A DNA stretch of 64,000 nucleotides from Nymphaea colorata (Eukaryota > Streptophyta > Magnoliopsida > Nymphaeales > Nymphaeaceae), in assembly GCF_008831285.2 (NCBI RefSeq), contig NC_045142.1, positions 13,346,716 to 13,410,715 of the forward strand, in the 5' to 3' direction. Of the stretch, positions 2,638 through 32,186 are shown one piece after another. Both the position numbers and the translations under genes were made by a program. The notes beneath the pieces are model-generated. The model did no database searches. It was not told where the DNA came from and was given only the letters and a program-made list of their open reading frames with translations. Position 1 is the stretch's first letter. Every line of letters starts with the position of its first letter.

Positions 2638-2955
2638 TCATTCTGGGATGCTTCTATCAGAGTCTTCCTCATCAAAGTAGAAGGGCTTCAGGTTACAAAC
2701 ATGGAACATTGAATGCACCTTAAAGTCCGGCGTTGAGTTTAGCTTGTAGGCTAGCTTCCCGATTCTCTTTAGCACGATAAAGGGTCCTTCATACTTGCGG
2801 ATTAATGACTTGTGTTGACCACGAAAGATGCCCGGGCGATCAGGATAATGTTTCACGAGGACTTGATCACCCACTTGAAATTCCATTGGCCTTCGAATTC
2901 GATCTGCAAATTTCTTCATCTTTTTGGCGGTCTTATGTAAGAACGCCTTAGCCAA
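2638..2955 (-). pseudogene. gypsy integrase C-terminal region (GPF/Y-like)
   Basis: An open stretch of about 105 residues contains VGDQVLVKHYPDRPG, LIRKYEGPFIVLKRIGKLAY and VHSMFHVCNLKPF. This is the typical tail of plant gypsy integrases (nucleic-acid-binding GPF/Y module) ahead of a chromodomain. The frame hits TGA at the end, and gypsy sequence stops at 2,631 where hAT-1 abuts. The upstream continuation is interrupted by a TAG next to the HDL motif (about 2,970) and then by hAT-2. Confidence 0.85.
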
Positions 2956-3042
2956 CTCAATCTGTTTCTACAAGTCATGGACAAACTGGTTGGCAAAAGT
3001 AAGTCGTCCCTTCTCTTGGGCTGCAAGGGTATGAGGCATAAG

Positions 3043-3215
3043 CCTGGGCACCGGGCCGGGCCGCCGCTGGGTACCCGGTACCTGGCCCGACTCGGGCCCG
3101 GGCCCGGGCCTTGAAAAAATCAATTTCGGCCCGTTAATTACCGGGCTCGGCCCGGCCCGGTAGTTAACGGGTTGGGCTCGGGCCCGCCACTGTGCTTGGC
3201 GGCGGCCCGAGAGGC
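3043..3215. repeat. CCGGGC-type subterminal array, left end of hAT-2
   Basis: Overlapping CCCGG/CCGGG motifs in both orientations just inside the left terminal repeat. A matching array lies at the right end. They are absent from the body of the element, so they are likely transposase-binding or end-recognition sites. Confidence 0.75.
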
Positions 3216-3240
3216 GAGAGCCCGATACTATTATTTTTTT

Positions 3241-5237
3241 TAAAAAAAATTAACTTATGAGTTATGTAGGGTTTCAGTTTTCACTCTCTCGATACTTCCC
3301 TTCCCTGTTTGGTTGTTCCTCGCCGCCGTCGAGACTCTTCAGTGAAGACTGCCTTCTCGTCGCCCAACATTTGCCTCCTCCGGTGACTGTCTGCCTCCTC
3401 CGGTGACCGGTCCTCCCAGTTGCCGTCGCCAGCGCCCAATTAGGTAGCTGCTCAGAAGAGGCGAGAATCTGCTGGAATCACGCCAGAACGGTCCCAATTA
3501 AGAGGAGAACACGAAGCTTTCAGGCCACTCGAGTTCGGATTGAAGTCTGCATGATCCCATCAAAAACCACACGTTTTGAGGTTTGTACTGCTCTTCTGGT
3601 TCATGTTCACTTATCTCCATCTCCTCTTCGTTATCATCTAGGACAGAGACCATATACTTTGGAGGCGCTTAACTCTAATCACTGCTCCAATTAGAAGGAA
3701 TCAAGATTGTAATAGGGAAAATTCAAAATGGAAGGAAAATATTTAGCCTAGTAGATTCCTAGTATAACTTCAGCCTTCTTTTGATCATATATAAGTTCTT
3801 ATTGCAGTACTTCTGATTTTCTCGCTCTAGAACATGCTTCCTTCCTGCATTTATCTTCAAATGCAGTAACTTTGAATGCAAGATCTGTAGATCAACATCA
3901 ACTCATCAAGTTGCCCCTGCAATAAGATCTACACAAGGAAAAGCATTATTCTTTCATTGGTTATTTGAACAATGCTGGCCGACAATCCTGTTCTTTGTAT
4001 AGATTTCTGTTGTTGTGTCTCTTTTATCAGCGCGTAAGTGAGTCAAATATATAATTGGTTGCAACCTTTTAAAGAAGCTTCTGCAAGGAACCGAGCGCGC
4101 TCTTGTGTCCTTATACTGTGCCCATTACCTGTTTGGTAAGTTGTCTGAGAGAACTTGACTTTGCAGCTGTGGTCCATTACCTGTTTTCTCATTTGTTTCT
4201 TTTCTTTGTAAATTCTATTACTGTGGTGGGAAAAAAATACGCCAATATCAAAACAAGATGCTACGCTACATCATGCCTCGTCTACTAGTTTGGGATGAGC
4301 AGGAACATATCTCAAGCAGCCATTTGCAGTCAAGGGCTTACTGTTCTTAGTATGACCTTTCTGTACCTGAATCCTGGAAAATTGGTTTTCAGAGACTTCA
4401 TAATTATAATGTTCAACGCAAGATTTATTTCTGTACCATAATTATAATGTTCAACTGAATTATTGACGAGGTAGAGTGCAAGGCTTTGCCCAGTGCAATG
4501 GAAAAAAAGAATGCAAGAAATAAAAGCAATTTGATGCATTTATCTGACATTAGGAGCACTTTTTATTTTTTATTTTTGAAGAAGAATACGGGTTCCATTT
4601 ATTTTGTTGTCAGCATACCATGATCATTGAAAAGGCCATGACAGTCGACAGATGGGTGCTTCTTGTAGCTAGTTCAAGGTGAACAAAAGAGCAGGTGGCA
4701 TGAGTTGTAAAATAAGTTTTTTTTTTAAATTTTCTTAAACATTCTAAAATAGTTATTAATTGCTTTTTTCAAAAGATTAAAAATGTCAGCGTGTTTTTTT
4801 TTGGGGGTTGGGAAACCAAATGGAAACCAATAGTGAACAAAGATCGCCTGAAGCTATACAAAGATGATACCATAGTCCATAGTCGTTGTAAATCTTCTCT
4901 TACTTAGCATGAGTTACGAATGGAAATTGCTGCTCAATTTTGTGTATGTATGGGAAGTAACTCGTGGCTCATGGTGATGTGGCCAGTTCTACTTGGACTT
5001 GTCATGTGCTATATGATGTGGTCACAAAATCAAATATCTATTTCATGGAATAGGATATGTGAAACTTTTATGTAAATTTGGTATGAGCATAAAAATATAT
5101 GTATTTACAATAAGTTTTCTATACATATGCCTGCATAAGAGTGAATTCTTGTTATTCTTGTTATTACCATCCATGCTCAATGATGTTGGTCTTTAGTATG
5201 TTATTGTTTTGGCTATTTACATGTGTCATTTCAACTT
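3241..5237 (+). other. 5' leader region of hAT-2, no separate gene
   Basis: About 2 kb between the left subterminal array and the transposase start. The stretch 3,280-3,450 is C/T-rich and looks like transcript leader sequence. The rest is AT-rich with no convincing coding frame. A possible splice acceptor (CTTATGTCAG) sits at about 5,244, so a leader intron is plausible, with ATG 5,247 as first codon. This is inference. Confidence 0.4.
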
Positions 5238-7334
5238 ATGTCAGTTATGTCGCCTGCTTCTTTTGATAAAGAATATTGTCCAACTTCTAATATGGAATCA
5301 GTCGAATCATCTACTGAGAGAGAAGCTGTCTCAAAGAGAAAAAGGACTTCAAAAGTATGGATTGATTTTATATTGGTTACATATAAAGGAGAAGAGTTTG
5401 CCAAATGCAAACATTGTGGAGAACGACTTAAAGCAAGCAGTGCTCATGGAACTAGCCATTTAAGTCGACATATGAAATCTTGTTTAAATAGGCAAATCAA
5501 TGAAGGAAAGCAAAGAACTTTATCACTTGCAGTTAATGACTCTGGTGCTACTTCTATAGGTATACAAAAATTTGACATGGAGTTTATAAGAAAGTTGATG
5601 TCAAAGTGTGTAATAGCACATGAGCTTTCGTTCAATTTGGCAGAATATAAATATCATAACAAACTTCTTCAAGCTTGCAACCATAAGTTTGTTCCATTTT
5701 CTAGAAGAACTTTGAAAAGAGAAATTATGTCAGTGTACAAGGCTGAGAAAGCCCGACTTGAAGGATTTATAAATGATTCTACGCAGCGAGTTTCATTGAC
5801 ATTTGATATGTGGACTTCACAGCAGACATTGGGTTATCTATGTGTGACAGGACAATATGTTGATAGATATTGAAAGTTGCATGCTCACATGTTCAGTTTT
5901 GTACATGTGCCTCCGCCACATAATGCAAATAGTTTGTGTGAGGCTTTATTAGAATGCATCTCTAAATGGAACATTCAATCAAAGTTATTTTATATTACAG
6001 CTGACAATTGTTCGACGAATGATAGTGCAATAACTACACTGAAAAGGAACTTAGGAAGAAGAAATCTTATTCCAATGCAGGGGCAACATTTGCATATTCG
6101 TTGTGGTGCGCATATTCTAAATCTTATAGTTCAAGATGGTATGCAGGATCTGCATGATACAATTTCAAAGATTCGTGAAAGTGTTAAATATGTAAAGGGA
6201 TCACCAAAGCGGTTACATTCCTTTAAGGATTGTATAAGAACAGTGGGCTTAATTGGTACAAAGAAATTAACTTATGATGTTCCAACTCGATGGAACTCTA
6301 CATATGTTATGTTGAGAGATGCATTGTTCTACAAAGATGCATTTCAACATTTAGCTTCTATAGATCCCAATTATACAAATTTACCTTCTGATGATGAATG
6401 GTCTTATGCAACTACCTTGTGCCAGTTTTTGAAGTTATTCTATAATGTTAGAAATATCTTCTCTGCCACTAGAAACGTAACAGCTAATGTGGTTTTTGAA
6501 GAAATACAGAAGGTACGCAACCATTTGCGTAAAAATCGTTTGGCAGACAATGATTATATAAGGTCATTAGCATACAAAATGCAAGAAAAGTTTGACAAAT
6601 ATTGGAAAAATGATTACAATGTCCTTTTTGGAATTGCATTTGTCTTAGATCCTAGATCCAAACTGGGATATTTGAAGTATGTGCTTGAGAGTTTAAATGA
6701 AATTGATGCAATGGTACAATATGAAAAAATAGAGAGTAGTCTTCATGGATTGTATGTTGAGTACAAAAACGTGTATGGTACAGACAATGAAGAAAATGAA
6801 AATGCAAACAACGCCATTGTTGATTTTGAAGAAGAGAGGGCTTCAACTTTTTCAAGAGATGCCTTCTTCACATATTACATGAGTTCTGCATCTTCTCAAG
6901 TACCTCGCACAGATCTGGAAGCATATTTAACTGATCCAATAGAACGATCTCGGCCTAATGAAGACTTCAATATATTATCTTGGTGGAAGGCAAATGAAAA
7001 TAAATATAGAGTTTTATCCAAAATGGCTCGAGATATCTTGGCAATCCCTATATCCACGGTTGCATCTGAGTCTGCATTCAGTACAGCTGGAAGAATCATT
7101 AATGATTATCGATGTTCAACCACTCCCGAAACTGTTGAAGCACTAGTTTGCACACAGAGTTGGATTCGTGATGAAGATATCTCATGTGAAACGTAAGATG
7201 TTCATTGTTTAATGTTAATTTTTAATCTTTTTTTTTGTTTTTCATGATATACTAACATTGTAGTTTGCTTGTGGTGATGTGTTTTTTGTAGTTTTGAAGA
7301 AAAGGAAGAATCTTCTGGTGACGAATTAGCATGA
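5238..7334 (+). pseudogene. hAT transposase (BED-finger, RICESLEEPER/DAYSLEEPER-like) with one nonsense codon and a small terminal exon
   Basis: Transposase of about 660 residues. The BED-type zinc finger comes first (KCKHCGERL ... HLSRH, about residues 60-85). The RNase H-like catalytic core follows (TFDMWTS, then TADNCSTND, then PTRWNSTYVML), and last comes the hAT dimerisation domain (FNILSWWKAN, PISTVASESAFSTAGRI). The frame is open from ATG 5,238 or 5,247 except for TGA at 5,871-5,873, where relatives have Trp after the DxY motif (TGG to TGA). The ORF seems to stop at TAA 7,194-7,196, but that TAA lies in a donor (AC|GTAAGA). Splicing 7,192 to 7,292 (99-bp intron, acceptor TTTTTTGTAG) gives TFEEKEESSGDELA and a stop at 7,332-7,334. 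Domain family is certain. Whether readthrough or a source copy elsewhere supplies active protein is unknown. Confidence 0.9.
7193..7291 (+). other. Terminal intron of hAT-2 transposase gene (99 bp)
   Basis: Donor GTAAGATG after 7,192, AT-rich body, acceptor TTTTTTGTAG. The downstream exon stays in frame to a TGA. The homologous intron in hAT-1 (539-629, 91 bp) has the same acceptor and a similar last exon, which argues that it is real. Confidence 0.75.
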
Positions 7335-8129
7335 ATTATATTTCATTGTGGTAAAACGTTTCTTTGACATTTTATAACATTGTAGGTTGGTTTCTTATGC
7401 TATAAGCATAGTGTTGCACCATATCAAATCAATCTTATTGTCTCTCTTTATCTCTTTGCTTTCTCATGCAAATTCAATGGGTGTGGTTGTTACAGTGAAA
7501 GCACATATGAAGGCGAAGGATGTCACATAACAAAGCTTGATCAGATTTTGTTCAATGGGAAGACAACGCTGGTGTTGCTCTTGTTTGCTCAGCCCTCCTA
7601 ATATATATGTAGCATGCTATGTGGGTGGGATTTGTACTCTTTTCCTGCCTTGGTTGTTAAGGTGGTTTGGGATCTTGTAAGTTCGGAAAGGAAGATATCA
7701 TGTGCTGTTTAGATAGCTGGTATTATCACTAATATGGAGATACAATGTTCAATCATGTACTTTGACACTATTGGAAAACAAGTGCAACTTCTATGGATAT
7801 CTTTTTTACTAAGGCTGCTTTGCTTTGTACTTGGGTTCTAAACTTAGATGCTATTATGTTCTTGATTTTGTGGAGCTTTAAAATACTTCATGAGTCCTTA
7901 CTCCACGCCCATGTAACGAACTAACTATGTAAGGTTTCTTACAATGAAGGACTATTGTTTTTACATGGGAGTTTTTGTAATGTGGTGCCCTGTCCGATGT
8001 ATCTATGTTTGGGATAAATGGCTGTTATTTGCTTCAAATATCATATGAAACTACCATCTTATAAAAAATTATTGGTTACATGGTGATTATAGAAGCAAAC
8101 TGAACCAAAAAACAGGTTTGAGAAACAAG
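7335..8129 (+). other. 3' region of hAT-2
   Basis: AT-rich sequence between the transposase stop and the right CCGGGC array. No coding frame of substance and no internal repeat recognised. Confidence 0.5.
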
Positions 8130-8375
8130 CCCGGCCCCAAAAATTCCTGGCCCGGCCCGCCAAAAGCCCAACTGAGCCCGCCCGGCCCGTTATTAATTGG
8201 GCCGGGCCGGGCCTTGGGCCTTGACCGAAGCCCGGGGCCCGATATGGCATGGGCCCGGCCCGGCCCGTTTAGAAACGGGCCGGGCCTCGGGCCGACCCGT
8301 TTCGGTTTTTGGGCTTCATTTTCACATTCTTATCGGGCCGGCCCGGCCCGGCCCGGCCCGGCCCGGCCCGGCCCG
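8130..8375. repeat. CCGGGC-type subterminal array, right end of hAT-2
   Basis: Includes an almost pure run of the pentamer GGCCC (about 8,336-8,374) just inside the right terminal repeat. Long open frames here (Pro/Gly/Ala-rich) are artefacts of the repeat. Confidence 0.8.
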
Positions 8376-8397
8376 ATGCCCAGCCCTAATGAGGCAT

Positions 8398-9400
8398 CAA
8401 TGGCTGCTGCCCAGTGGCTATCTTGAACGGGCTATGACTTGAGTTACATCCAACAATTTATGAAATTGTTGGATGTAGCTCAATCTATAAATTGTAGCAA
8501 AATTGAGCTACATCCAACAATTTCACTCAGTTCTTTCTGATTTGCACTAAAATAGTGTTGAAAGTATTGTTCCAACAAACAGTTAATCTGTTCAGTTTGA
8601 CTATCAGTTTGCAGGTGGAAACTTGTTGAGAATAATAAATCCAAACCCAGCAAATGAAATACTTCGTGCCAAAACTTTCTTGTGAAGCGGACTTCATGAT
8701 CACTTACAATGTTTTTCGGCACACCCCAGTGCTTCACTATGTGCTTCACAAAGTACTCCGCTGTCATCTCCATGGGACATTCCTTAGAGGCTGGGATGAA
8801 AGTCACATACTTTGAGAATCAATTCGCAACCACAAGGATGGAATTGAAGCCGTCAACTTTGGGTAAGCTGATGATGAAGTCCATATAGAGACATTCCCAT
8901 GGATGTTCTGGAATAGGAAGAGGCTCCAAGAGACCAGCAGTCTTCTAATTTGTTCCCTTCTCTTGCTGGCAAATCAAGCAAGTTTTTACATATGCCTCAA
9001 CATCATCGCGCATCTGTGGCTAGTAATAACCACGTTCAAGGAACGCCAACATCCGCTCCTGGTTAGGATGGTCAGCCCACAATGAGTCATGACATTCCTT
9101 CAGCAACTCTCGTCGAAGGTTGCCCCATCTAGGTACGAACACACGTCTGCCTTTTGCCATCAGAATTCCATCACACAACTAGAATCATCGTGTTTTCCCA
9201 CCTCAGCTGCCTCAACCAAGTGCTTGGCCATAGGGTCCTACTTCATGCCATCTCGAACCCGCCCGAGAAGAGCACTTTCAAGTTTCACTTCAGATGATGC
9301 CATCCGAGTAGCTGCCAACTCCACCTTCTGACTTAATGTGTCGCCTACGATGTTCGCCTTTCCTGCCTTGTACTCCAAGCCAAAATCAAATCCTGCATGG
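8398..9400 (-). pseudogene. gypsy integrase (zinc-binding and catalytic core), degraded
   Basis: Reading leftwards: an HHCC-type zinc region (H..H in KECHDSLWADHP, then CLICQQEK), then the DDE core. The core has LYMDFIISLPK (first Asp), VPKNIVSDHEVRFT (second Asp in SDH, usually SDRD) and LQTDSQTEQIN (Glu). The frame ends HSPFKIATGQQPL at 8,398, where hAT-2 interrupts, and continues at 2,960-3,030. Stops and frameshifts occur, including a local 21-bp duplication and inversion at 8,439-8,523 that destroys the segment after the Glu region. Confidence 0.85.
8439..8523. repeat. 21-bp inverted plus direct repeat inside the gypsy integrase
   Basis: Arms 8,439-8,459 and 8,463-8,483 form a hairpin with a 3-base loop and one mismatch. 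A third copy of the same 21-mer (core CTACATCCAACAATTT) lies at 8,503-8,523. Related gypsy proteins have no counterpart of the extra sequence, so it is a local duplication within the decayed element. Confidence 0.85.
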
Positions 9401-14338: not shown

Positions 14339-14453
14339 TAGGGGTGGGCATCGGGCTGGGCCGGCACGGCCCGGTAAGAACCAAGCCCCATCGGGTCGAC
14401 CCGGGCTAGGTACTGGGCCCCCATCGGTGGCCGGCCCCCGGCACCCACCTCTA
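14339..14453. mobile_element. 115-bp hAT-like miniature element (CCGGGC type)
   Basis: Begins TAGGGGTGGGCATCGGGC and ends GGCACCCACCTCTA, imperfect inverted repeats. The flanks GTTCCGGG (14,331-14,338) and GTTCTGGG (14,454-14,461) form an 8-bp target duplication with one mismatch. The ends resemble those of hAT-2, so it could have been mobilised by that transposase family. Confidence 0.8.
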
Positions 14454-14559
14454 GTTCTGGGCAACATAAACCTCTTGTGTTGTTACCAGTTATTCTGAAT
14501 TTATCTATTTCATGTGTTTCATATTCTTTATAGGGATTACATGGATGGAAGAGTACAGG

Positions 14560-14812
14560 TAGGTGTCAGGCCAGGCCGCCAGCGGGGACCCAGTACCCAG
14601 CTTGGGCCCGACGGGGCCCGTTAATATTTAAAAAATAATTTTCATTATTAATAAAAATATATTTTATTATTAAAAAATATATTTTATATTTAAAAAATTT
14701 TTATAGTTAATTTTTTTTTAATTATTACCGGGTCGGGCCTGAGCCCGATGTTTCGGACATCAGACTGAACAGGGTCCGGTTGTCACCTAGCCAGGCCGAT
14801 GATCACCCCCTA
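14560..14812. mobile_element. Miniature element of the CCGGGC type, 253 bp
   Basis: Two GC-rich ends (TAGGTGTCAGGCC on the left; reverse complement of the right TAGGGGGTGATCATCGGCC) flank a very AT-rich middle (14,625-14,730). Terminal repeats are diverged and I found no clear target duplication. Confidence 0.5.
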
Positions 14813-15389
14813 CGAGGAGGCAATGGTACCATGATTATTCCATGCATCACAAATACTCGTGTTGCTACAGTTGAGAGGCATGCATTTCACTTTCTAACAA
14901 TAAGCGATGGTGACTTCTCAAATTTGCTGCACCCCTATTTCTTACTTTGAGCCAGGATTGTAACTTATCATCATCTATCTCATGTCTTTGTTTCCTTTTT
15001 GTATCTAGAGATTCCTCTGCGATGGTGGGGTCTACTGGGGACTGTCGACTGCCTACTCCCTACTATGTGCCTCCTTTGAATAACGTCTCTGTTGATGAAA
15101 TTTCCGAGTCATTTGTGGTGTTTGTTATGATATAGTAATGAAACCAAGCAGAGCAGCAGTCTTAGTGTATTTTGGGACCGTCCATCTAAGGATGAAAATT
15201 TGTCTCTATTTCATGGAGGTAGTTATTTTGGATGAACATCTCACAAAAATGAAGATGGGTTGTTTGCGCCAAAGCTCATACATGCATGTGATGCTTCATT
15301 TATGTTTTTTCATGTTAATTTCATTTAAATGTTGTTCGATACCTTTATATATTGGTTTTAAATTGGGTTGAAGGGTGTTGCAACAGAAA
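14813..15389. other. No gene recognised
   Basis: Short open frames only, with no family resemblance. Nothing else seen. Confidence 0.4.
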
Positions 15390-15581
15390 ATTTGGACACA
15401 ATTAACACCTAAACGAGTTAACACTAAATGAGTTAAATGGGTTAAACGAGTCGAGTTCAAGCTCGACTTTGTGTAGTCAAGTCGAGCTTGAGCTTGCTAT
15501 AAGGAGCTCGACTCGAGTTCGAGCTTATCTTGAGCTTGGGCTGGCCAAGCTCGAGCTCGACTCTGCTCGTGTGCAGCCCTA
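15390..15581. mobile_element. GAGCTCG-type subterminal array and right terminus, copy of the hAT-1 end
   Basis: Shares with 2,440-2,630 the AAACGAGTTAA start, the CTCGAGC/GAGCTCG array and the exact end GCTCGTGTGCAGCCCTA. It is a miniature relative or a solo end of the hAT-1 family. Its left terminus and target duplication are not clear. Confidence 0.6.
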
Positions 15582-27835: not shown

Positions 27836-28456
27836 ATCTCGTGAGGAAGATGGTCTAGGTTAGGGTCCATACCCGGACACATGTTGCATCTGCATGAAGA
27901 GACCCGACATCAAGGGGCCTCTCTTCCTACTTAGTCAGGCCTTTCACCATCATTTCTTTGCCCTATCTCTCATTCTCTCCCTTGTTCCCAATCTCCCTCA
28001 CACAAACTCACTCTCTCTGTGTGCATGTCACTCTCAAACTCTCACTGCACTCCCTTGTGCACACACTCCCTCTCTCAGGCACGTTCTCACTCTCCCTTGT
28101 TGTCTCCCTCACAATTCCCCCATGTGTGCCTTCTCACTCGCATGCACCCTACTGCTCGCTCACTCTCTCACAGACCCTCAATGCTTAACCGACTGCCTGC
28201 TGACACCAATGTGTTTGTTTTTTTTGTCCACTCATTTTCATTCCCTATTGGTAATGTTTGGGTTGGACTATAGAATATGGATTTCTTTCCCCTTTCTTTC
28301 CCGTGATAGAAAGTGTTCGAAGCATCGACAATGAACTGTCATCAACGGCTAGTTGCTGGCCCAACATTTGGGGTAGCTTTTAGAAACACCTACAATAGTT
28401 AGGACTCTATAAGAGGAGTGAGCATAGTAAAAAAGGCCTAATTTTACTACATTTTG
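27836..28456. other. C/T-rich stretch without a gene
   Basis: Positions 27,950-28,200 are rich in CTCTC and CACTC, so all frames stay open over it. The predicted Ser/Leu-rich peptides are low-complexity artefacts. It could be leader or LTR-adjacent DNA. Confidence 0.45.
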
Positions 28457-31400
28457 TCCTAATAATGTATATTATCCTTTTAGCATGATGGGTTAATATT
28501 TGAAGCGGTTAGGGAGCATCATAAAATCTTGATAATGTTGAGAAGGTTTAGGACTGTTTTAACAAACTCTGGATCTATGCTATTGTCTATTTGAATATCA
28601 TGTTGCCTATTAGGAAAGAGTACTTAAGTTGGTTTGCATGTGAAATTATGATTTGAAAGGACGACAGAACATGTAAGTTATTGGGGTCTGAACATCCACT
28701 AAGGTGTGATGAAAATGCTCATTTATATTGATTTGATTACTTTTATGTTCTTGCAAGTGAGCTAGTGTCATTGTCATCAAATTGACAAAGGAAAAGTATG
28801 ATTGTTGGGATGATGCTCAACTAACAAAGCAAGTTGAGAAGCATACTACTGATAGGTTGAATCGAGGTCTTGGAGTTTAAATTGATTAGTCATAAACTTG
28901 AAAGGATGGAAAAAGCTTGTTGAAAGGTTCTATAAATAGGTTCTACCTTCCATCACCTTCTTGGATGATAACCAAAGATTTGTTGGTCTTACTTCTTACC
29001 TAAATAGATTTTAGAGCAAAGTGGACAGAAAACTTATTGTTTTGAGTTTTTGTATGTGGACTGGGCACATGGAGTAGACCTTGAATGACAGTATCCAGAG
29101 CTCAAGGCAATTTTAGGTTTTTGTAGAGATGCATGACATGTATGGCGGCATTCTGGGCAAATCCCTCCATGAGGCCAAATATGGAGTGTGTGTTGTGTTC
29201 TCCAAGTGTGAGTTTTTAGGATCGTTGGATCTTATGTTTGTGTTTTTGTCTAAATGGTGTGTGATATGGCATGGCTCTTGACATATGAACGAAGGTATAA
29301 ATTGTTCGATTGTGTTGATTAACCATCTTAAAAATGTTTCATGATGGCATATGCATGTTAGAGATTATAATTGCTACAAATTAGGTGGGGTATTGAGTTG
29401 AGTACATCATCGACTCTAATTGTGCATTAATGAGCATTTTAGCATGACATTTGCTTATGACAGCTATGAGTTGATTACGGATCGAGATTACTCTTTGTGA
29501 TTCACCTAAGTTTTCATATGAAGCGAGTGTTATGACTTGAATGTTGTAATCATTAGGAATTTTTTTGTATTGCCACTGGAAATGATTTAATTGAATGGAC
29601 TTATGGGTAGAGGTACCCATATAGTGTGGTTAGGCTACCTAAAAGCATTGATTGAAAGTGTGGCCTTCTTAGGAAGGCAGATTGGGTCTGGTTGTCCTAA
29701 GAATATATATATTTATTTTTTTAGCATGATGGGTTAATATTTGAAGCGGTTAAGGACTACGGTAGAGATCTTGATAATGTTGAGAAGGTTTAGGACTATT
29801 TTAAGAAACTCTGGATTTGTGCTATTGTTGATATTACGTCGCTTGTGAGGAAAGAGAACTTAAGTTGGTTTGCATGTGAAATTATGATTTGAAAGGACGA
29901 AAGAATCATGTAAGTTATTAGGGTCTCAACATGTGCTAAGGTGTGATCAAAATGCTCATTTATGTTTATTTGATTAATTTTATGCTCTTGCAAGTGAGCT
30001 AGTGTCGTTGTCATCAAATTAACAAAAGAAAAGTGTGATTGCTGGGATGACAGTCAACTAAAAAAGCAAGTTGAGAAACATATCACTGATAGGTTGAATT
30101 GAGATCTTGGAATTTAAATTGATTGGTCATAACCTTGAAAGGATGTAAAAAGCTTGTTGAAAAGGTTATACGAACCAATTCTACCTTCCAGCACCTTCTT
30201 GGATGATAACTTATGAGCCGTTGGTCTTACTTCTTAACTAAATAGAGTTTAGAGCAAAGTGGATAGGAAACTTATTGCTTTGAGTTTTTGCAGGTGGACC
30301 GAGCACATCGAGTAGACCTTGAATCATAGGATTAGGAGCTCGAGGTGATTTTAGGTTTTTGTGGAGATGCATGATATGTATGGCGACATTCTAGGCAAAT
30401 CCCTACCTGGGGCCAAATATGGAGTGTGTGTTGTGTTCCACAAGTGTGAGTTTTTAGGATCGTTAGATCTTATGTTTGTGTTTTTGTTTGAATGATGTGT
30501 GATATGACATGGCCCTTGACATATGAATGTAAGTATAAAATTGTTTGATTGTGTTGATTAATCGTCTTAAAAATGTTTCGTGATGGCATATGCATGTTAG
30601 ACATTATAACTGTTTAGCATAAATTAGGTAGGGTATTGAGTTGAGTACCTCATCTGACTCTAATTGTGCATTAATGAGCATCCTAGCATGATATTTGCTT
30701 AGGACAACTACAATCTGATTACAGATCGAGATTACTCTTTGTGGTTCCGCTAAGTTTTTATATGAAGTGATTGTTATAACTTGATTGTTGTGATCATTAG
30801 GAAATTTTGTTTGTATTGTCGTTGGACAATGATTTAATTAAATGACTTATGGGTGAAGGTACTCATAGAGTGTGTTAGGCTAGCTAAAAGTATTGATTGA
30901 ACATGTAGCCTTCCTAGGAAGGCAGATTAGGGTTTGGTTATCCTAAGAATGTATATATTTATCCTTTTAACAGGATGGGTTAAGATTTGAAGCGGTTAAG
31001 AAGCATAGTAGAGATCTTGATAATGTTGAGAAGGTTTAGGACTGTTTGACAAACTCTGGATCCATGCTATTGTCAATTTGAATATTACGTCGCTTGTGAG
31101 GAAAGAATGCTTAAGTCGGTTTGCATGTGAAATTATGATTTGAAAGGACGACAGAACATGTAAGTTATTAGGGTCCAAACATGTGCTAAGGTGTGATAAA
31201 AATGCTCGTTTATGTTGATTTGATTAATTTTATGCTCCTGCAAGTGAGCTAGTGTCATTGTCATCAAATTGACAAAGGAAAAGTATGATTGCTGGGATGA
31301 TGCTCAACTAAGAAAGCAAGTTAAGAAACATACTAATGATAGGTTGAATTGAGGTCTTGGAGTTTAAATTGATTGATCATAACCTTGAAAGGATGGCAAA

Positions 31401-32186
31401 AACTTGTTGAAAGGTTCTATGAACTGATTCTACCTTCCGACACCTTTTCGAACGATAACCTGAGTCGTTTGTTTTACTTCTTACCTAAATAGATTTTAGA
31501 GCAAAGTGGATAGAAAACTTATTGCTTTGAGTTTTTGTAGGTGGACTGAGCACATCAAGTAGACCTTGAATGATAGGATCCAGAGCTCGAGGTGATTTTT
31601 GGTTTTTGTAGAGATGCACGACATGTATGGTGGCATTCTAGGCAAATCCCTACCTGGGGCCAAATATGGAGTGTGTGTTGTGTTCCCCAAGTGTGAGTTT
31701 CTAGGATCGTTAGATCTTATGTTTGCGTTTTTGTCTGAATGATGTGTGATATGACATGGCTCTTGGAAAATGAATGTAGGTATGAAATTGTTTGATTGTG
31801 TTGATTAACTGTCTTAAAAATGTTGCGTGATGGCATATGCATGTTAGAAATTATAACTGCTTAGGACAAATTAGGTAGGGTATTGAGTTGAGTACCTCCT
31901 CAACCCTCATTGTGCATTAATGAGCATCCTAACATGATATTTGCTTAGGACAGCTACGAACTGATTACGAATCGAGATTACTCTCTCTGGTGTGGCTAAG
32001 TTTTCATATGATGTGATTGTCATGACTTGATTGTTGTGATCATTAGGGAATTTTGTCTGTATTTCCATTGGACAATTATTTAATGAATGGACTTATGGGT
32101 AGAAGCACCATAGAATATGGTTAGGCTAGTTAAAAGCATTGATTGAATGTGTGACCTTCTTAAGAAGGCAGATTGGGGTCTGGTTG
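28457..32186 (+). repeat. Three tandem copies of a 1.24-kb unit (LTR-like)
   Basis: Units at 28,457-29,694 (1,238 bp), 29,695-30,940 (1,246 bp) and 30,941-32,186 (1,246 bp). Each starts near TCCTAA(G/T)AAT, contains GGGTTAATATTTGAAGCGGTTA soon after, and ends GGCAGATT..GGTCTGGTTG or a near variant. They are clearly similar by eye with scattered substitutions. No coding frame runs through them. A single-unit relative lies inverted at 43,300-44,335. The unit is probably part of a gypsy LTR or untranslated region; that is inference. Confidence 0.85.

Follow-up and report, generated by a model that had tools for sequence, protein, structure and literature searches.

A hAT transposon with two acquired host DNA fragments in its leader, nested in a gypsy integrase of Nymphaea colorata

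In the genome of the water lily Nymphaea colorata, the integrase region of an older gypsy element is interrupted by a hAT transposon, which made an 8-bp target-site duplication on insertion. The leader of the transposon contains, beside the transposase gene, two fragments acquired from the host, one of which is the end of a neprosin-domain gene. Coordinates refer to the window, i.e. the whole stretch of 64,000 nucleotides that was analysed (contig NC_045142.1), and are collected in Table 1. The element and its nested position had been proposed in an original prediction made from the letters of the window; the current analysis adds to it the two acquired host fragments, the spliced last exon of the transposase gene, a second hAT and other damage to the integrase.

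Table 1. Features of the hAT element and of its gypsy flanks in the window
Feature	Position	Strand	Remarks
Gypsy pol flank, integrase C-terminal side	2639-3030	-	Pfam SH3_Tf2-1 on 2638-2967; homologous copies
Left target-site duplication (8 bp), ATGAGGCA	3031-3038	.	One octamer only in 9/9 empty sites
hAT element	3039-8388	+	5,350 bp; same ends with own exact duplications at 11/20 other loci
5' terminal inverted repeat, TAAGCCTGGGC...	3039-3063	+	25 nt, 88% complementary to 3' end
5' subterminal GGGCC/CCGGGCC array	3039-3238	.	GGGCC x14, both strands counted, first 200 bp
Predicted transposase first intron	3581-5244	+	Prediction; donor-like GT and acceptor TCAG
Captured piece A	3651-4102	+	Last 7 codons (stop included) of neprosin-domain gene and 3' region; match C1:27371689-27372146
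Captured piece B, inverted	4692-4892	-	201 bp; C3:9042516-9042716, 97.0% by blastn
Transposase coding exon	5238-7192	+	ATG at 5238, or at 5247 with predicted intron
BED zinc finger	5349-5483	+	Pfam PF02892
Nonsense codon breaking the window copy	5871-5873	+	TGA; absent from L009 and L010
hAT-like RNase-H fold region	6462-6764	+	Pfam PF14372
hAT C-terminal dimerisation region	6912-7166	+	Pfam PF05699
GT-AG intron preceding last exon	7193-7291	+	Spliced frame matches P0001 C-terminus
Transposase last coding exon	7292-7334	+	Frame ends at 7334
3' subterminal GGGCC array	8110-8388	.	GGGCC x25, both strands counted, last 279 bp
3' terminal inverted repeat, ...GCCCAGCCCTA	8364-8388	-	25 nt, 88% complementary to 5' end
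Right target-site duplication, ATGAGGCA	8389-8396	.	Matches left octamer
Gypsy pol flank, integrase core side	8397-8897	-	At least 39 other genomic places

The insertion and its empty site

The limits of the element and the 8-bp duplication given in the original prediction were confirmed. The features of the hAT superfamily are present, namely the 8-bp duplication, short terminal inverted repeats and subterminal repeats confined to both ends, GGGCC being absent, with both strands counted, from the 4,871 bp of interior sequence (3239-8109). The direct repeat around the window copy is actually 9 bp in length (ATGAGGCAT), so that the boundary is ambiguous by 1 bp when judged from this copy alone; the shifted reading is ruled out by the next base in nine of the eleven other copies with exact duplications. 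These copies derive from a genome search (783 contigs, approximately 408 Mb) in which the query was the first 301 bp of the element and 40 of 556 first-look candidates were scored, for which reason the copy number of the family is a lower bound. Twenty loci were fetched besides the window, and the same ends, whose recurrence elsewhere in the genome the original prediction had proposed as a check, were found with their own exact duplications at eleven of them; L015 and L019 have a duplication with one mismatch, while none was detected at the searched end motifs of the other seven (L011, L013, L014, L016, L017, L020 and L022). Five of the eleven exact-duplication copies (L024-L028) are miniature, at 598-796 bp. 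Among the 13 duplications, a small set, T occupies position 2 in eight and A occupies position 7 in eight, a composition that resembles the preference described for Hermes (PMC10368747).

Natural empty sites support the nesting of the hAT in a gypsy integrase. A genome search with the right flank, in which 40 of 186 candidates including the window itself were scored, returned the other places counted in Table 1, and nine of these gypsy loci (L030-L038) were fetched. The alignment of the left flank reaches the end of the octamer at 3038 in all nine, at 82.7-87.4% identity, and the octamer, which is single and continues into the right flank, reads ATGAGGCA in four, ATGAGACA in three and ATGTGGCA in two. 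Right-flank alignments begin no more than 5 bases from 8397 in six of the loci; in L033, L036 and L038 the local alignment begins only at 8488-8489, and the join was read by eye from the sequence. Integrase homologues, for which a lack of continuity over the junction had been named beforehand as grounds for abandoning the proposal, are continuous over it in all nine loci.

The rejoined integrase frame which had also been claimed holds locally, as the frame of L034, which has a Pfam rve core match, is open over the insertion site (...TGQQPLMPHTLAAQEKG) and meets a stop approximately ten codons later. It does not hold for the whole gene, given a stop codon at 2968-2970 in the window integrase and a foldback of approximately 48 bp (8440-8487) that repeats nearby integrase sequence in inverted orientation. 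This foldback is absent, as judged by eye, from the nine other gypsy copies and looks like a local template-switch mutation. Considering both lesions, the gypsy element was not an intact gene broken by the hAT alone.

The same gypsy element houses a second hAT-like element approximately 400 bp from the first, which occupies 1-2630 of the window and extends leftward to C5:13344029 (L046:2530), amounting to 5,317 bp. Its ends share 12 identical terminal bases (TAGGGCTGCACA), the flanking octamers (GTGAGTCT and GCGGGTCT) differ by two mismatches, and gypsy sequence resumes beyond its far end in all four comparisons; the end of a transposase at approximately 1-660 was read by eye only. Elsewhere in the window, positions 15425-15581 are 78.5% identical to 2460-2630 and finish in the same TGTGCAGCCCTA, and are probably another end of this second family. 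Short G+C-rich stretches at 14340-14460 and 14555-14815 resemble, by eye, candidate miniature hAT-type elements, and approximately three units of about 1,240 bp, 87% alike, are arranged in tandem at 28454-32186.

Transposase gene and sister copies

All three domains of a hAT transposase (BED finger, RNase-H-like core and dimerisation region) were found by Pfam. Solved relatives retrieved by sequence at E values up to 0.001 are all hAT transposases, two of the four entries being Hermes and two named 'transposase'; Hermes is the nearest, albeit distant (best E 8.6e-19), and the stretches fdmwts and asesaf, in which catalytic acidic residues may lie, align with it. The publicly annotated protein P0001, which is 100% identical over 88% of the L009 query and ends in ...CETFEEKEESSGDELA, fixes the last intron and the end of the frame. 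The first intron is a prediction: the window, L009, L011 and L044 share a donor-like site at 3581, L012, L019 and L021 yielded no such motif, and the TCAG acceptor (5243-5244) occurs in six of the seven elements examined, L011 having been considered only through its leader region.

The window was compared with the 11 other copies that have coding sequence. As the original prediction stated, a single in-frame nonsense codon breaks the window transposase, which thus lacks the unbroken frame of an autonomous hAT; both sister copies, L009 and L010, are free of this codon. The accompanying suggestion that intact source copies may exist is borne out by L009, in which the transposase frame is open and this codon is not nonsense; L009 and L019 have neither a premature stop nor a change in length. 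The only frame difference in L010 is the loss of 1 bp. Since the published 409-Mb genome in 804 scaffolds was assembled from PacBio RSII reads (PMC7015852), a single-base loss of this sort may be erroneous. Eight of the 11 other copies have premature stops or deletions of greater length, and most of the family examined is therefore broken. Besides the window, two copies have a nonsense codon at the place of 5871-5873, L015 likewise with TGA and L018 with TAG. Recurrence at one codon was considered as a possible signal and rejected, because with 20 premature nonsense codons in the window and the 11 copies it is, by a rough hand estimate, not clearly beyond chance.

Ratios of dN/dS lie between 0.27 and 0.35 when the window or L009 is compared with L012, L013, L019 or L044. 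Values for other pairs are 0.20 (window-L009), 0.26 (L009-L010), 0.44 (L009-L016), 0.33 (L012-L019) and 1.04 (L019-L021), and the ratio is undefined for L018-L019, which differ by 10 nonsynonymous changes and no synonymous change. The deeper comparisons thus show selection on the frame, which two of the shallow ones do not.

In a tree of the coding region the window groups with L009 and L010 (support 0.985). With 59 gapped columns excluded, 6 of 5,330 sites (0.11%) distinguish L009 from L010; the distances of the window are 0.75% to L009 and 0.71% to L010, and 0.82% in non-coding sequence minus the ends. The two sisters lie on the same contig, and this location together with their near identity might suggest a segmental or assembly duplicate whose 0.11% would date no transposition. 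We regard the chance of this as close to negligible, since they are approximately 22 Mb apart on opposite strands, their duplications (GTTTAGAA and ATTTTCAC) differ although both are exact, and the bases outside the duplications differ as well. The pair therefore records a transposition, and the claim in the original prediction that the family was recently active is upheld by it. If each site changes at a plant rate of 7e-9 per year, a value that may differ in water lilies, the separation would date back some 0.1 million years for L009-L010 and some 0.6 million years between this pair and the window copy, as orders of magnitude. Recent activity of this hAT family is well supported, and its copies may be mobile today.

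Host DNA in the leader

The leader (3290-5190) was searched against the genome, with all 25 candidates scored and 36 matches returned, and was further compared by local alignment. Blocks 3438-3650, 4105-4304 and 4301-4695 match family locus L011, and the sequence from 4888 onwards matches L044. Piece A, which stands in place of approximately 166 bp that are mutually similar in L011 and L044, is mostly 3' non-coding sequence. At its donor locus a Pfam Neprosin domain extends to the end of the profile and the coding frame continues upstream; as the piece begins seven codons, stop included, before this frame ends, the DNA moved from the gene to the transposon. Some 94 bp within piece A (3875-3968) have four further weak matches in the genome (77-84%), and this part of the piece is consequently not unique. 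Piece B has a single genomic match besides its three carriers (all 25 candidates scored, common words skipped).

The window, L009 and L010 carry both pieces. Neither was found by local alignment in any of 14 other family loci (scores of 24-37, where the pieces score 904 and 402 against themselves), a comparison in which L044 and L022 are incomplete and to which the five miniature copies do not belong. The substitution distance of piece A to its donor is 2.7% in the window and 3.7% in L009 and L010, that of piece B is 2.0%, and those of the four leader blocks to L011 or L044 are 6.1, 2.5, 5.0 and 7.4%. Taken with the carriers, these distances place both uptakes before the window, L009 and L010 diverged and, going by three blocks out of four, after their split from L011 and L044; the exception is the block that differs from L011 by 2.5%, less than piece A differs from its donor, which runs contrary to a simple age order. 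At the left junction of piece B, 4 bp (CAGG) overlap with both sources, while the overlap at its right junction contains a mismatch and the junctions of piece A have little or no overlap.

The leader of L012 (L012:1350-3790), a member of a related subfamily, holds a nested element of approximately 770 bp; its ends are inverted over 45 bp, and it has matches elsewhere in the genome. Gene capture was looked for in this leader and was not demonstrable, the sequence found being the nested element and family-specific sequence.

Proposed history and known systems

We propose that the element moved by hAT cut-and-paste, presumably with the chemistry of an Ac/Hermes-type transposase, when it entered the older gypsy integrase. 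Its lineage acquired pieces A and B in the non-coding leader before the three copies separated. Template switching during the repair of an excision gap is the likely route of uptake, and it has been proposed that captured sequence can arise from faulty repair of this kind (PMC3260210); as the right overlap of piece B is imperfect and piece A has little or no overlap, support for this route is weak. Both pieces lie inside the predicted first intron, which, if used, would explain how the transposase tolerated them: it would have remained translatable, and the lineage would have kept transposing to yield the window copy and its two sisters, of which three only the window copy has the nonsense codon. 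Taken as a whole, this account of hAT insertion, leader uptake of two host fragments through gap repair, intron tolerance and three descendant copies is, in our judgement, very probable.

A reading of the two pieces as transposons nested in the leader, or as former hAT leader sequence since lost elsewhere, and not as captured host DNA, is highly improbable. Leaders of this family do hold nested elements, as in L012, and part of piece A has its four weak extra matches; against this, piece A carries the end of a coding frame for Neprosin whose upstream part lies in the donor, the only genomic match of piece B outside the three carriers emerged from a search in which every candidate was scored, and the 14 other family loci compared have neither piece. 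Granted that host DNA was captured, it could have arrived by another route, such as the excision or repair of two neighbouring copies enclosing host DNA, a model proposed for Pack-CACTA and reviewed for Pack-TYPE elements (PMC13317346). We consider this rather unlikely, as template switching accommodates more simply two pieces from two chromosomes, one of them inverted, in one leader with a 4-bp overlap, thin as this argument is.

That the window copy was inserted with its nonsense codon already in place, having been moved in trans by the transposase of a sister, is possible though doubtful. Its duplication is still exact, a relative with an open frame exists, and movement in trans does occur in the family, as the miniature copies without a gene have exact duplications; the nonsense change may also have followed the insertion. 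Returning to the preferred account, one could extend it to a self-mobile hAT whose long first intron would accommodate captured host DNA without harm to the transposase and which would thereby spread gene ends, the neprosin 3' region perhaps feeding small-RNA control of its donor, an extension which we deem improbable. The hAT is ordinary in kind, and the captured neprosin end, the located donors and the young sisters lift it slightly above the routine. It is a documented case in which a hAT with a transposase gene took up host DNA and both sources are located, and very young sisters, natural empty sites and an open-frame relative render mobility directly testable in an early-diverging flowering plant.

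Among the literature matches listed for the end sequences of the element, none concerns transposon work by its title, and a literature search on hAT elements in Nymphaea colorata yielded nothing on the window element. Hermes of the housefly has an 8-bp duplication, imperfect terminal repeats and subterminal repeats bound by BED domains, as described in PMC10368747; the window element is like it in transposase type, duplication, imperfect terminal repeats and the presence of subterminal repeats, at the sequence distance given above, and by analogy its BED domain might bind the GGGCC repeats. Rice Dart/nDart, a plant hAT with a 19-bp terminal repeat (gcccatttggccacctcta) and an 8-bp duplication (PMC2956540), has a similarly G+C-rich end of different sequence, a likeness drawn from the ends and not from the transposases. 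Maize Ac/Ds is likewise a hAT with an 8-bp duplication, with a terminal repeat of 11 bp as against approximately 25 imperfect bp here (PMC3260210).

The uptake of host DNA by hAT elements is already known, and the present case is hence a clean example and not a new kind. Filler in maize Ds is sometimes gene-derived, and the authors of PMC3260210 call such uptake by hAT elements rare; that filler resides in non-autonomous Ds, whereas the fragments described here sit beside a transposase gene. Pack-TYPE elements, including Pack-hAT, hold host gene sequence between transposon ends and are defined as non-autonomous (PMC8903248). Piece A is captured host gene sequence of this sort, although mostly 3' non-coding, but the window lineage has a transposase gene. 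Among earlier hAT captures the nearest precedent found is the Hatvine-6 group of grapevine, and a closer case in print is possible; its members have a common transposase and ends, the rest differing and often matching genic or non-genic host DNA, according to PMC2528002. The window element resembles them in holding host DNA within a hAT and differs, in another plant lineage, in that both donors are located, the uptake lies in the leader, and near-identical sisters exist, one with an open frame. What mainly sets it apart is that the fragments stand beside a transposase gene and that its lineage includes sisters which are nearly identical.
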